A DNA stretch of 64,000 bases. It comes from Gossypium raimondii (Eukaryota; Streptophyta; Magnoliopsida; Malvales; Malvaceae). The position numbers and the translations under genes were made by a program. The notes beneath the pieces were generated by a model. The model saw only the letters and a program-made list of their open reading frames with translations, did not search any database and had not been told where the DNA came from. Location of the stretch: NCBI RefSeq assembly GCF_025698545.1, contig NC_068575.1, forward strand, positions 57,359,980-57,423,979, given 5' to 3'. The first letter of the stretch is position 1, and every line of letters begins with the position of its first letter. Below are positions 1-4,740 of this stretch, piece after piece.

Positions 1-1060
1 GGAGCAGATCGAAGATGGAGGATTTTACCTCCCAGTGGTTATAGTGGAGTACATTAAAGCCAGTAATTCTACTTCTCTGGACAACATTGGAATAGATTGA
101 AGATTTCAAATCTTATCTCCCTAAGCAGTAGTGGAGCAGATCGAAGATGGCGGATTTTACTTCCCTGTGGTTATAGTGGAGTACATTGAAGCCAGTTATT
201 CTACTTCCCTGGGCAACAGTGGAATAGATTGAAGATTTTAGATATTATCTCTCTAGGCAGTAGTGGAGCAGATCGAAGATGGCAGATTTTACCTCCCTGT
301 GGTTATAGTGGAGTACATTGAAGCCAGTAATTCTACTTCCCTAGGCAACAGTGGAATAGATTGGATATTTCAGATCTTATCTCCCTAAGCAGTAGTGGAG
401 CAGATCGAAGATGGCGGATTTTACCTCCCTGTGGTTATAGTGGAGTACATTGAAGCCGATAATTCTATTTCCACGGACAACGATGGAATAGATTGAAGAT
501 TTCAAATCTTATCTCCTAAGCGATAGTGGAGCGGATCGAAGATGGAGGATTTTACCTCCCGTGGTTATAGTGGAGTACATTGAAGCGATAATTCTACTTC
601 CACGGACAACAATGGAATAGATTGAAGATTTCAGATCTTATCTCCCTAAGTAGTAGTGGAGCAGATCGAAGATGGCGGATTTTACCTCCTTGTGGTTATA
701 GTGGAGTACATTGAAGCCGTAATTCTACTTCCACGGGCAACAATGGAATAGATTGAAGATTTCAGATCTTATCTCCTAAGCGATAGTGGAGCGGATCGAA
801 GATGGCGGATTTTACCTCCCTGTGGTTATAGTGGAGTACATTGAAACCAGTAATTCTACTTCCCTGGGCAACAGTGGAATAGATTGAAGATTTCAGATTT
901 TATCTCCCTAAGCAATAGTGGAGTAGATCGAAGATGGCGGGTTTTACCTCCCTGTAGTTACAGTGGAGTACATTGAAGCCAGTAATTCTACTTCCCTGGG
1001 CAACAGTGGAATAGATTGAAGATTGTAAGTCTTATCTCCCTCCAGTTGCAGTGGAATAGA
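1..1060 (+). repeat. Tandem array, 132-bp unit made of three 44-bp monomers
   Basis: About eight head-to-tail units. The unit start GGAGCAGATCGAAGATGG (or a close variant) recurs at 2, 133, 265, 397, 528, 658, 788 and 920, giving a period of 130-132 bp. Each unit splits into three related pieces of about 44 bp. They begin GTGGAGCAGATCGAAGATGG, GTGGAGTACATTGAAGCC and GTGGAATAGATTGAAGATTT, and each ends in a CTCCCT/TTCCCT-rich stretch. This is a higher-order (trimeric) repeat. It looks non-coding. It ends in a decayed partial unit near 1060 and continues off the left edge. It lies just upstream of a polypurine tract and LTR, so it belongs to the 3' internal region of the retrotransposon. Arrays in that place are known for the Tat/Ogre lineage. 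Confidence 0.9.
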
Positions 1061-1211
1061 TTGAAGCACTAGCTCCTATACTTATGAAGATGCAGTGGAG
1101 CGGATTAAAACCTTGAAAAAGAAGAAGAATAAGAAGAGTACCAAGATCCAGCACGACTGGGCAAAATCAGGAATTTTTAAAGTTTTTGCTCTGTTCCTGT
1201 TACACGACAAC

Positions 1212-1228
1212 GAGCAAAGAGGGGCAGC
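1212..1228 (+). other. Polypurine tract of LTR retrotransposon
   Basis: A purine-rich run (GAGCAAAGAGGGGCAGC) directly abuts the TG that opens the LTR at 1229. This is where the plus-strand primer site of an LTR retrotransposon should be. It shows that the LTR at 1229-3596 is a 3' LTR with internal sequence to its left, not a solo LTR. The 150 bp between the tandem array and this tract are A/G-rich and look non-coding. Confidence 0.7.
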
Positions 1229-2210
1229 TGTAATACCCGATTTTGGCCCGAGTAAAAGGCCCAAACTGATTTAAAACAGTGGCCCAATTTCGAATATGGC
1301 CCAAATACAGTGGTCCAAAACGGATGAGGAAACCCTAGGGTTTTTGAGGATCAACAGCGCCGCAAGCCACCTCCACGCGATCTCCACCTGCACAACAAGA
1401 AAGGAAATAAACAACAATGGCAAGAAAATCAAGAAAATTGCAACAGATTTATTTCTTTGTTTTGTATTTTTATTATGGCTATAAAAAGCCATTGAGATAC
1501 TGTATGAAAGAAGGTGAAGGGGATACAAAGAAAAAGAGAGAAAACAGATACAATAATTTTTTGAATACAAAGGTTTCTTTTTTTTTTTCGTTCTACATTA
1601 TTGGCGTTCATCATTCTTTTACTATCTATCTATATTTTTCTTTTTTCTTTTATTTTTATATTTTGCTTAAAATAATAAAGAGGAAGAGAACGAGAAACTT
1701 ACCTTTTCTCGCTGAACCATGAGTTGTTGCCATCTCCGTCGTAATCGGAGCTTTGGCACAAGGTGGCAGTGGCACTCAAGGGTTGATGAAACCCTAAAGA
1801 AGCCATTTCATATCTTGCTTGAGAGAAAGGGAAACAAAATTGTTTCCTTAAATTTGGCTTTTTTAAAACTTAAAAGAAGCAGACGGTGCCATCCATTGGG
1901 GTCCACGCATTTCCACCCTAAGTGGGAAATTTGCACATTTAGACCTCCTCTTTTGAGACATGTTTGGATTAAACCTATTGTTCCTTTTTAATTTGGCCCA
2001 AATGTTTCTGCCTTTGTTCATTTCAGCCCATATCGCTGCACACCGTTTTGGGGAGGCGGATTATTTCCGATTTGGCCCTCCATGTAATTTGCATGTCGCG
2101 ATTTGGCCCATTATTTTGATTAAATTTCATTTATTTCTTGTTATTGTTGTTTTTTAACTATTTGGTTTTTTTTTTTGCAATTTCGCTTTTTTTAAATTTA
2201 TTTTCTTATT

Positions 2211-2246
<36 letters not shown>

Positions 2247-3596
2247 GGTATTGTAATTATTATTTTCATGTACATACAAACATTTTTATAATATATATAT
2301 ACACTTTTAAAAACTTGTGTTTTTTTTACTTTTGTAAATATGTAAATACGTATGCTTCTATACATTTTTTATATATATATTATTCTTCATAATTTTTATA
2401 AACTAATAGTTTTCTCATATTTATATAATTATGCATGTTTATTTATTTTGATAATGTAGATATTATTTAATTATTTTTAATATATTTTATATGTTCATAT
2501 ATATATATAATTTACATATACATATTTATTTATTTATTTTTAATATGTTATGACTTTTGTATATATAAGTTTTATAACCCAAAATTTTATTTGTAAATCA
2601 TATGTATTTTTCTTTAAAATTTCTATGTGTAGATTATATACATTCTTTTCTTTATTTATTTTGCTTGTTTTCTTCATTCGCTACTTAATTATGTTTACAT
2701 TTATTTATTTTATTTAATATTTTGCATGTCATGAAATATTGCTTTCATATATATTCATTTCGTTTATTTATTTGTTTATATTATTTTTATGCTATTGATG
2801 TATTTATTATTGTTGTATTTATTATTATAGCATTTGTACGTATAAAATAACATTACATAATCTTTTACTCAAATTTAAAAATAGAAAATTTTCAAAATAG
2901 AGATAATACTCGTATTTAGGATTTTTAAGAAAATTGAGCCCTAACGTATTGGGTTCCGATTTTCTTCGTTAAATCTAACGATTGAGCATTTCTCTTTAAT
3001 CAAAAAAAGAAGAACTCATTATTGGGAATTCAACACGTTGTGTCCTAACGTATTGGATGTGACGCATTGATTTCTCGAAATGAAGATTTTTCTCTAAAAA
3101 ATAATAAAGGAAATATTCCGAGTTTGAGATTTTAAAGGAATTGTGCCCTAACGTATTGGGCCGCGATTTCTTAAATCTTGGATAAATGGATATTCTTTTA
3201 AAATTTTTCATTATACGAGTATTTTGACCTAATTAATTTTGGAGGAAATTAGAATGTTGTGCCCTAACGCATTGGGTGTGCCATTTTTTCTTCTCTGAAA
3301 TGATAAGGGTCTTAATAGTAACGTTTTAAGTTTTTTTTTGTTAAGGATTATATTTTGCAAATTCTCGACATTAAGACATTAATTAATTAACTAGGTACCA
3401 ATTTTGGGCGTAATGAGGGTGCTAATCTTTCCTCATACGTAACCGACTCCCGGACCTATTTTTCTAAAATTCGTAGACCAAAGTCGTTTTTAGGTGACTC
3501 AATCACACATTAATAAAAGATTGGTGGCGACTTCAAATTTTTATTTTTTAAAGTCGACAACCTAAAACTTTTATTTTCAAAAATATGGTTTCGACA
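1229..3596 (+). mobile_element. 3' LTR of a Tat/Ogre-like Ty3-gypsy retrotransposon (fossil)
   Basis: The LTR is 2368 bp, opening TGTAATACCCGATTTTGGCC and closing GGTTTCGACA, so it has the usual TG...CA ends. A second LTR with the same ends and nearly the same length (2391 bp) lies at 46166-48556 on the other strand, which fixes the boundaries. Near the 3' end is the shared block reading TTTTGGGCGTAATGAGGG then CGTAACCGACTCCCG, followed by TGGTGGCGACT. The rest of the element, including the 5' LTR, lies outside the window, so no target duplication can be tested. The Tat/Ogre call rests on the long LTR, the tandem array beside the polypurine tract, and my recollection of cotton gypsy elements. 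It is an old copy and no coding part is visible in the window. Confidence 0.75.
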
Positions 3597-4740
3597 ACAT
3601 AAATTACTATAATTAACTTAAAAATATAAATTACAATAATTTTTTCGAAGGAGTTCATAAGTATAAATGGTAAATAATACATATTTAATTAATTAAAATT
3701 AAAATTATTAAATACTGAGTATAACAAAGATGGAAAAATATGAGTAGAATCCAAACATGACATTTGTGTGTAGTAAAATTCATATTTGACTAAAATCTCA
3801 AAACCTCAACCTTTACCGATACAACTAAAAGCTCGTGGGCAGATTTCTTTAAAGTTTTATAGGTTTATTTTTATCATATTTATATAATAGAATTTCACGC
3901 GGTCAATTAAATTAGCATATAAGCACGATCTTGCATTTTTATTTTTATGACTATATTATCATCCATCATCATTACGCCCTTTTCTTTGTTGTTATTATTG
4001 TACTTAAAATGTCTTCAATTGCAATCAAAACTTTATTTCCCGAGTCCTCAAGCAAAGTTCATTCTTGGTTTTCAAGATTTCACTTTCATACTCTTTCCCA
4101 CCCAAAAATTGTGCAAAATTATTTAATAAATGCTTCTTCATCGATGCTTGACCTTAATGCACGTGGAAATCATTTTTAATAATAACTCTTTACGCCCCAA
4201 TAATAATGAAATTTTAACTATGAATCAATAAAATTAAACAATTTTCTTTTAACTTACTTCAATTAGCAAACAATGCAAGAATAGTGATAAAAATATGAAT
4301 TATATTTATACCCAAATGAAATAATTATATGAAGCAATTAAATTAAATATGAATTATCAAATAACTTGCTTCAATCAGAATAGTGTTCAGATAAATAGAC
4401 CTCGTACCTCTTTCCCATGTTAGCTTATTATTATAAATATTTGGTCTTTAAAATAGAAAAGAAAATATGTATATAAAAGGAAGGTAGAAACTCTTAAAGT
4501 CTATGAATTATATTAAAAGCTAACATTTGGGTATAATTAATTAGGAGCTTCAATTTTAGAGCCCATGTGAAGCTTTTCAAGAAATGTGACCACAAACTTG
4601 CGGAGAAAACAGAAAGGGAAAAACTCAAAAATTGCATTATATTTATATATAAAAATAATTAAAATTCTGTCAACAACAAAAGAAAGAATGTATTAAATAT
4701 ATATAATTAATTATTAAAAAGATTATAAATATTTTCCCTC
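3597..4740. other. AT-rich intergenic DNA
   Basis: AT-rich spacer between the retrotransposon and the promoter of the UDP-glucose dehydrogenase gene. I see no open frame with family resemblance, no RNA gene and no clear repeat boundary. Confidence 0.6.

Follow-up and report, generated by a model that had tools for sequence, protein, structure and literature searches.

Trimeric higher-order tandem repeats in short arrays inside LTR retrotransposons of Gossypium raimondii

A 64,000-nucleotide stretch of the Gossypium raimondii genome (C11:57359980-57423979, hereafter the window) opens inside a tandem array of 132-bp units, each consisting of three diverged monomers, A, B, and C, in fixed order. 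The array is a trimeric higher-order repeat lying near the 3′ LTR of a retrotransposon, and arrays of the same family are present on contigs C1-C13 of the assembly. We read these arrays jointly as a non-coding higher-order family that is shared by dispersed elements and shaped mainly by jumps of reverse transcriptase, a reading to which we assign a probability of about 55%.

Two-level structure of the window array

Tandem Repeats Finder (TRF) detected a period of 132 bp across window positions 1-1041 (7.9 copies, 90% matches, score 1674) and further, weaker rows with periods of 44 and 88. The left part of the array is clipped by the window edge. It was recovered in a locus covering the 10 kb upstream of the window (L031), where the array starts at C11:57359321 (L031:9321), 659 bp upstream of the window; it ends at window position 1048, and its full length is ~1.7 kb. 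When three real monomers served as references, string decomposition resolved the complete array as (ABC)13 without exception, the unit being ~132 bp.

1..1048, + strand: window part of the (ABC)13 array (TRF, sequence, and decomposition), continuing upstream to C11:57359321
787..831, + strand: example monomer A, 45 bp (reference monomer, decomposition)
832..874, + strand: example monomer B, 43 bp (reference monomer, decomposition)
875..918, + strand: example monomer C, 44 bp (reference monomer, decomposition)

A first-pass annotation made from the sequence had described nested periods of 132 and 44 bp. Both periods are real, but the monomers are not uniformly 44 bp long, measuring 45 (A), 43 (B), and 44 bp (C). 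Monomers of the same type shared identities of 0.925 (AA), 0.895 (BB), and 0.901 (CC), and those of different types 0.616 (AB), 0.673 (AC), and 0.620 (BC); thus, the units, in fixed order, resemble one another much more closely than do the monomers within them (0.90-0.93 versus 0.62-0.67), as is characteristic of a higher-order repeat. When one monomer per type was compared with 2000 dinucleotide shuffles, every real between-type score exceeded the shuffle maximum (z of 5.0 for AB, 4.6 for AC, and 4.1 for BC), indicating that the 44-bp layer is beyond chance. A lack of excess similarity among the three parts, which the annotation had named as evidence against its own proposal, was therefore not observed, and the trimeric higher-order repeat was confirmed.

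The host retrotransposon and its flanks

The annotation was also right to place the array close to the polypurine tract, in the 3′ part of the interior of an LTR element. The features downstream of the array are as follows.

1049..1228, + strand: 3′ spacer from array to LTR, ending with the purine run AAAGAGGGG and then CAGC; relatives have a similar spacer
1229..3596, + strand: 3′ LTR, 2368 bp, TG...CA (LTR-pair alignment)
3597..3601, + strand: target-site duplication ACATA (5 bp), with the second copy directly upstream of the 5′ LTR

The distance from the array end to the 3′ LTR is 180 bp, and by eye the initial part of the spacer resembles decayed monomers. The purine run occupies positions 1216-1224, so that the LTR starts 4 bp beyond its end; an A/G-rich stretch near 1115-1139 is separate from it. 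The 5′ LTR (C11:57348978-57351337, 2360 bp) is 98.2% identical to the 3′ LTR over 2344 aligned bases, with 42 substitutions and 40 gap columns. The LTR pair, the TG...CA ends, and the target-site duplication identify the host as an LTR retrotransposon, in which a candidate primer-binding site, TGGCGACTCCGCTGGGGAC, begins 3 bp past the 5′ LTR by reading. Commonly used plant substitution rates range from 7e-9 to 1.3e-8 per site per year; the age of the host estimated from its LTR pair would be roughly 0.7-1.3 million years, perhaps less, because clustered LTR differences may partly be sequence error.

The host spans ~14.6 kb, a nested 3.06-kb insertion included. Ten ORFs of at least 80 aa were found in L031, of which six were submitted to Pfam; a gag domain (PF03732, E 6.6e-12) was the only one to pass the cut-off, and reverse transcriptase, RNase H, and integrase were not found in these six. 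The host does not qualify as an autonomous Ty3/gypsy element by these searches, and decayed pol pieces may sit in shorter ORFs that lie between gag and the array. Since the searched ORFs held no reverse transcriptase or integrase and the gag-to-array distance is only 2.55 kb, the host is apparently a non-autonomous LTR retrotransposon of Ty3/gypsy type. Its membership of Tat/Ogre is plausible; that group is defined by a second (archaeal-type) RNase H together with reverse transcriptase phylogeny (PMC6317226). Pfam analysis of four ORFs upstream of other arrays detected no domain.

ABC arrays in dispersed elements

We searched the whole assembly (750.8 Mb, 281 contigs) with short pieces of the array and its boundary. 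A 34-base piece of monomer C gave 1630 matches at no more than two mismatches and a piece of monomer B gave 1361, the reversed patterns giving none; the 3′ junction gave 81 at no more than three mismatches, again with none for the reversed control. With the longest array as query, the longest arrays among the best 39 of 2678 candidates scored were 5.77 kb (C1) and 5.58 kb (C4), and the others did not exceed 3.05 kb.

Decomposition of 35 loci yielded 33 distinct arrays, as L003/L033 and L019/L026 overlap. All 33 contained ABC units, mostly as (ABC)n with 5-44 units. From start to end, the arrays ran from A to C in 21 cases, A to B in five, C to C in four, C to B in two, and B to C in one. Exceptions to the ABC order were limited to AA steps in L037, single CC steps in L038 and L024, and a partial unit in L036, and the arrays L012 and L025 have degenerate parts. 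In L037 (C2:20876501-20879800), the two AA steps lie 13 monomers apart, and a longer unit may be duplicated there.

Both element flanks, that is, the upstream sequence and the 3′ spacer, were present at 32 of the 33 arrays, including both of the two longest scored, and L002 retained the 3′ spacer only. Thus, the search for monomer arrays away from the element, which the annotation had suggested, returned none among the 33 examined, a similarity-chosen sample that could miss diverged free arrays. Nor did the best 39 of 2678 candidates include long, uninterrupted arrays free of the element, as expected of a satellite, with arrays missing from the assembly being possible. The family instead has the properties of a Tat/Ogre-type 3′ UTR array: it is non-coding, lies between the coding remnant and the 3′ LTR, keeps the same flanks, and varies in unit number between copies. 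Accordingly, the suggestion of a satellite seed caught in place was reduced to a possibility, given that the longest scored array reaches 5.8 kb and nearly all arrays carry both flanks.

That arrays recur in other copies of the element agrees with the annotation, which had held that their absence would count against it. Its proposal that the trimer was first amplified in the window copy was, however, not upheld. Because ABC units occur in all 33 arrays, beside at least six LTR types, the window copy most likely inherited its trimer.

Dimers, trimers, pentamers, and blocks

For a sample whose selection was independent of the array, we used a 24-base upstream boundary, which gave 280 matches at no more than two mismatches in the whole assembly and none for the control. 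The first 30 matches listed were taken (20 exact and 10 with one mismatch); five were already in the first set, one of them being the window array. The monomer family was detected in all 30 loci by an HMM built from the window monomers. In these loci plus the window array it gave 586 hits at E < 0.01, compared with none in locally shuffled copies.

By the spacing of shared 8-mers, 20 of the 30 loci were trimeric and six dimeric; one was dimeric/tetrameric (L051), one pentameric (L063), one tied between orders 2 and 3 (L046), and one unclear (L069). TRF periods in these loci were 88/89, 132/133, and 217. The count of trimeric loci includes L061, which had a nearly equal pentamer signal, and L043, whose trimer is not composed of A, B, and C as defined in the window array. 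L061 and L063 show five-monomer periods of ~217 bp in the same family and at the same element position, and L061 joins trimer and five-monomer stretches. Because dimeric and pentameric relatives of the monomer family occupy the same position in the element, the 44-bp monomer is probably an older layer than the trimer, in line with the annotation's proposal that a simple 44-bp repeat came first.

We also analyzed block repetition in the 14 arrays with at least eight units. L039 has 22 units in blocks of seven; the distance at lag 7 is 0.018, the mean being 0.061, and none of 5000 order shuffles fell that low. L036 has blocks of 15 units that are partly almost unchanged (0 of 1000 shuffles as low), and L032 showed a weak 15-unit periodicity (1 of 1000). 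For L013, L004, L034, and L020, 10 to 46 of 1000 shuffles were as low, which is weak after 14 tests, and for the remaining seven arrays, including the window array, at least 103 of 1000 shuffles were as low. L039 (C3:58521501-58526000) thereby displays three levels, namely the 44-bp monomer, the 132-bp trimer, and a block of seven trimers (~924 bp) repeated about three times. The near-identical 15-unit (~2 kb) duplication in L036 (C4:12798501-12806300) represents either recent growth or an assembly duplication.

LTR types, mosaics, and unit kinship

The first 300 bp of the LTR, compared across 32 loci, formed ten clusters at an 85% cut, some of which may reflect misplaced LTR starts at loci with a partial spacer match. 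A clear TGTAATACC start was present in six clusters (the window type, the L032 type, L007, L015, L020, and L024). Over these 300 bp, the window LTR is 43-66% identical to those of the other clusters. The upstream sequence adjacent to the array was matched in 32 loci besides the window, over 120-321 bp and at 79-97% identity.

Two loci combine features of different lineages. On its left side, L016 is nearest to the L018/L030 kind, both far from the array (0.92 versus 0.77 for the window kind, a value lowered by L006, which has little alignable sequence; L016 against the window alone gave 79.2%) and near it (0.954 versus 0.939). On its right side, it is of the window type in its last unit (0.94), spacer (0.95), and LTR (0.93). 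In L005, the last unit is of the window type (0.96 versus 0.91), yet the spacer (0.97) and LTR (0.91) are of the other kind. On short stretches, these combinations point to exchanges between lineages within or beside the array.

For distances between units, we used 88 of 132 columns, with CG and CHG motifs and their neighbors excluded. Of the 339 units, 198 had their nearest neighbor within the same array, compared with ~96 expected by label shuffling, indicating some within-array homogenization. For the last window unit, the nearest matches were the last units in L004 and L005; for the first, the nearest was the second unit of L017, followed by the first units of L033 and L011.

Possible array change by template switching or on the chromosome

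In the reading that we prefer, array length would change mainly by reverse transcriptase jumping between equivalent units, either along a single RNA or from one co-packaged RNA to the other. As A, B, and C have diverged to ~62-67% identity, mostly full-trimer jumps would find a matching landing site, and the 132-bp register would be kept. A stem-loop straddling each monomer junction may act as a pause or jump point. With every new insertion taking over the array of the RNA from which it was copied, the trimer would spread, and occasional duplication of multi-unit blocks would add a third level. The fixed position, the conserved flanks, the A-to-C register of 21 arrays, and the end units that resemble ends elsewhere are counted in its favor, together with the series of orders at flank-chosen loci, the mixed sides of L016 and L005, and the pairing at the three junctions. 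Counted against it are the 12 of 33 arrays that do not run from A to C, the match of the first window unit to an internal unit position of L017, the dependence of the mosaics on short stretches, the small upstream contrast in L016, and the hairpin pairs that fail at many junctions.

Alternatively, the trimer and the changes in copy number could have arisen mainly after insertion, by unequal crossing-over, gene conversion, and replication slippage, with the elements only dispersing the starting arrays. This is a real possibility, though one that we place below even odds. The excess of units nearest to their own array fits it, as do the block duplications in L039, L036, and, more weakly, L032; the within-array similarity and the 15-unit duplication of L036 are thus also points against template switching. 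However, chromosomal change accounts less readily for the same ABC unit in unlinked elements with different LTR types, for a last window unit that resembles the last units of other arrays, and for the examined arrays all staying within the element. The left and right sides of two lineages would also arise most easily between co-packaged RNAs, ectopic recombination being possible as well.

A more far-reaching form of template switching is offered tentatively and seems rather doubtful to us. The higher-order repeats themselves would be made during reverse transcription, hairpin- and homology-guided switching creating and spreading dimers, trimers, and pentamers from one monomer, simultaneously at many sites. 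If true, higher-order structure could evolve without centromeric chromatin and without crossing-over in long arrays.

Predicted hairpins at the monomer junctions

Stem-loops of similar form were predicted at all three junction types of the window array.

808..842, + strand: predicted stem-loop at the A/B junction, 8 pairs (−7.5 kcal/mol, z −0.8; weak alone)
853..890, + strand: predicted stem-loop at the B/C junction, 11 pairs (−10.5 kcal/mol, z −2.1)
897..935, + strand: predicted stem-loop at the C/A junction, 11 pairs in the window copy (−7.2 kcal/mol, z −1.7)

The predicted fold of two whole window units had a z of −2.2. Across the arrays, with 324 of 357, 327 of 351, and 308 of 333 junctions anchored for the count, 86, 91, and 79% of cells paired at the three junction types against no more than 60% in the slid control, a comparison that is inflated because the structure was derived from the same sequences. 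At two stem positions, both bases of the pair change from one junction type to another. However, most A/B junctions break one pair and most C/A junctions break two, and a C stands opposite the A in 49 of 120 GGAA junctions. Covariation of the hairpin was considered and rejected as a firm result, since the pooled Fisher p of 4e-31 counts related copies repeatedly and the pattern fails outside the main trimer subfamily. In 13 loci without the usual trimer, no significant hairpin association was observed (p = 0.11). The junction hairpin, as a predicted structure, is thus treated as a lead.

Relation to satellites and known element arrays

Alpha satellite higher-order repeats consist of diverged monomers in a fixed order, and similarity between their units far exceeds that between the monomers. 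The cotton arrays share this organization in their diverged A, B, and C, but unlike centromeric alpha satellite they are ~0.7-5.8 kb long, dispersed on C1-C13, and located inside mobile elements. Tat/Ogre elements were reportedly described by Macas et al. in 2009 as carrying tandem arrays in their 3′ untranslated region. The arrays of Lathyrus sativus resemble the cotton arrays in being short, in lying after the coding region and before the 3′ LTR, in varying in length between copies, and in being candidate satellite seeds (PMC7004042). The origin of satellites from Ogre tandem arrays has been published (PMC7004042; PMC9659126). As presented in the former, periods beyond that of the monomer were not detected in the nine Ogre-derived satellites, in arrays of >30 kb, and higher-order periods were found in FabTR-2, one of two satellites without an Ogre link (PMC7004042). 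The cotton arrays differ from such Ogre-derived satellites in displaying orders 2, 3, and 5 while still short and inside elements, with no expanded satellite found. Retand arrays likewise lie near pol or the 3′ LTR and vary in repetition number between copies, about half of Retand elements carrying them; their units are 8-100 bp, and higher order is not mentioned in the abstract or Results of that paper (PMC11963269). A study of cotton found no centromeric tandem repeat (PMC3334964).

Capture of a pre-existing free satellite by the element is improbable in our estimation. Higher-order structure is typical of satellites, and capture has been discussed as an alternative for Ogre arrays (PMC7004042); however, none of the 33 examined arrays lacks an element flank (diverged free arrays could escape this sample), the two longest (5.8 and 5.6 kb) have both, and orders 2, 3, and 5 share the same element position.

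Among the titles and abstract openings surveyed, with slight coverage of subscription journals, none described higher-order repeats inside such elements. That elements feed satellites is known; what looks new is higher-order structure in short arrays still within elements. The question of how higher-order satellite structure originates is usually studied in long centromeric arrays, whose early history has been erased. In the present genome, a single monomer family forms many short, separate arrays that share a fixed position in their elements, with orders 2, 3, and 5 and blocks of 7 and 15 units. As the arrays are separate and in principle datable by their LTR pairs, order, register, and growth can be tested array by array. 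Versions of the window array are present in dozens of related elements, so a layered repeat of this kind can reside in mobile elements, and spread there, even where no long satellite is formed.

CAG/CTG variants in array interiors

Part of the variation between units concerns CAG and CTG sites, which are CHG methylation contexts in plants. One such stretch lies in the window.

457..795, + strand: stretch with many CAG/CTG sites read as CGA/CG/ACG, probable methylation-linked sequencing error

We analyzed these variants in 339 units from 31 arrays, a set that omits the two degenerate arrays and the two loci overlapping others. CG-containing strings occurred at all seven CAG/CTG sites, each in 4-22% of units. 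At least three altered sites, by a measure that also counts plain substitutions such as CAG to CGG, were present in 70 of the 339 units, mostly in array interiors, compared with ~25 expected if sites were independent. Units with at least two altered sites numbered 84 compared with ~99 under independence, so the excess is confined to heavily altered units. Among first and last units, some of which are not true array ends, at least two altered sites were found in 3 of 31 each. Linked CGA/CG/ACG blocks were also observed in the interiors of L032, L033, L034, L036, L013, and others.

At eight control AG sites without a preceding C, the six most frequent states included no such swap, apart from one site that overlaps a CAG site. 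In the flanks adjacent to the arrays, swaps occurred at 1 of 248 CAG sites and 0 of 465 other AG sites, and in the farther flanks at 2 of 406 CAG and 23 of 1856 other AG sites, many of the latter being one shared variant. As the CAG sites of the flanks are nearly without swaps, the pattern is confined to the arrays in this comparison. Ordinary substitutions are also more frequent in CG and CHG columns, as expected for methylated cytosines. Consensus errors of ONT reads have been reported to concentrate at methylated CCWGG motifs (PMC6591954) and, in Listeria, at GCAGC/GCTGG motifs (PMC10687267). The CAG/CTG variants in array interiors are probably uncorrected methylation-linked long-read errors, and part of the unit-to-unit variation at window 457-795 is probably sequence error; true subfamily variation is the less likely explanation. 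If the variants are truly such errors, they are a warning against reading repeat subfamilies from long-read plant assemblies.

The heavily altered units resemble uncorrected long-read error, which raises the possibility that the layered structure as a whole is an assembly artefact. We consider this highly improbable, since 33 arrays at separate places share the 132-bp register and the unit distances avoid CG and CHG columns; exact unit counts and the duplication in L036 may nevertheless be off.

Reading frames and a nested insertion

That the unit encodes a repeated protein segment of 44 codons with its frame kept by selection is scarcely credible: 132 is divisible by 3 and 44 is not, but coding potential was rejected on finding 22-40 stops in each of the six frames of the array and its short flanks, a longest open stretch of 57 codons, and 132 of 339 units that differ from 132 bp (range 125-134). 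L031 contains four antisense ORFs of at least 80 aa (80-84 aa); the two submitted, one of which overlaps the array start, had no Pfam match. The antisense TRP28 ORF (PF04195) between pol and the 3′ LTR, which nearly all Retand elements carry (PMC11963269), was likewise not found in the host.

An inverted-repeat scan of the 3.06-kb nested insertion gave nothing useful. By reading, the insertion (L031:1863-4921; C11:57351863-57354921) has TG...CA ends and GTTTT duplicated on both sides. It contains tandem repeats of 28 bp (3057-3155) and of 47 bp (4137-4518), the latter also reported by TRF with a period of 22. Both had been considered as repeats of the host and were dropped, as they lie inside an insertion with its own GTTTT duplication.
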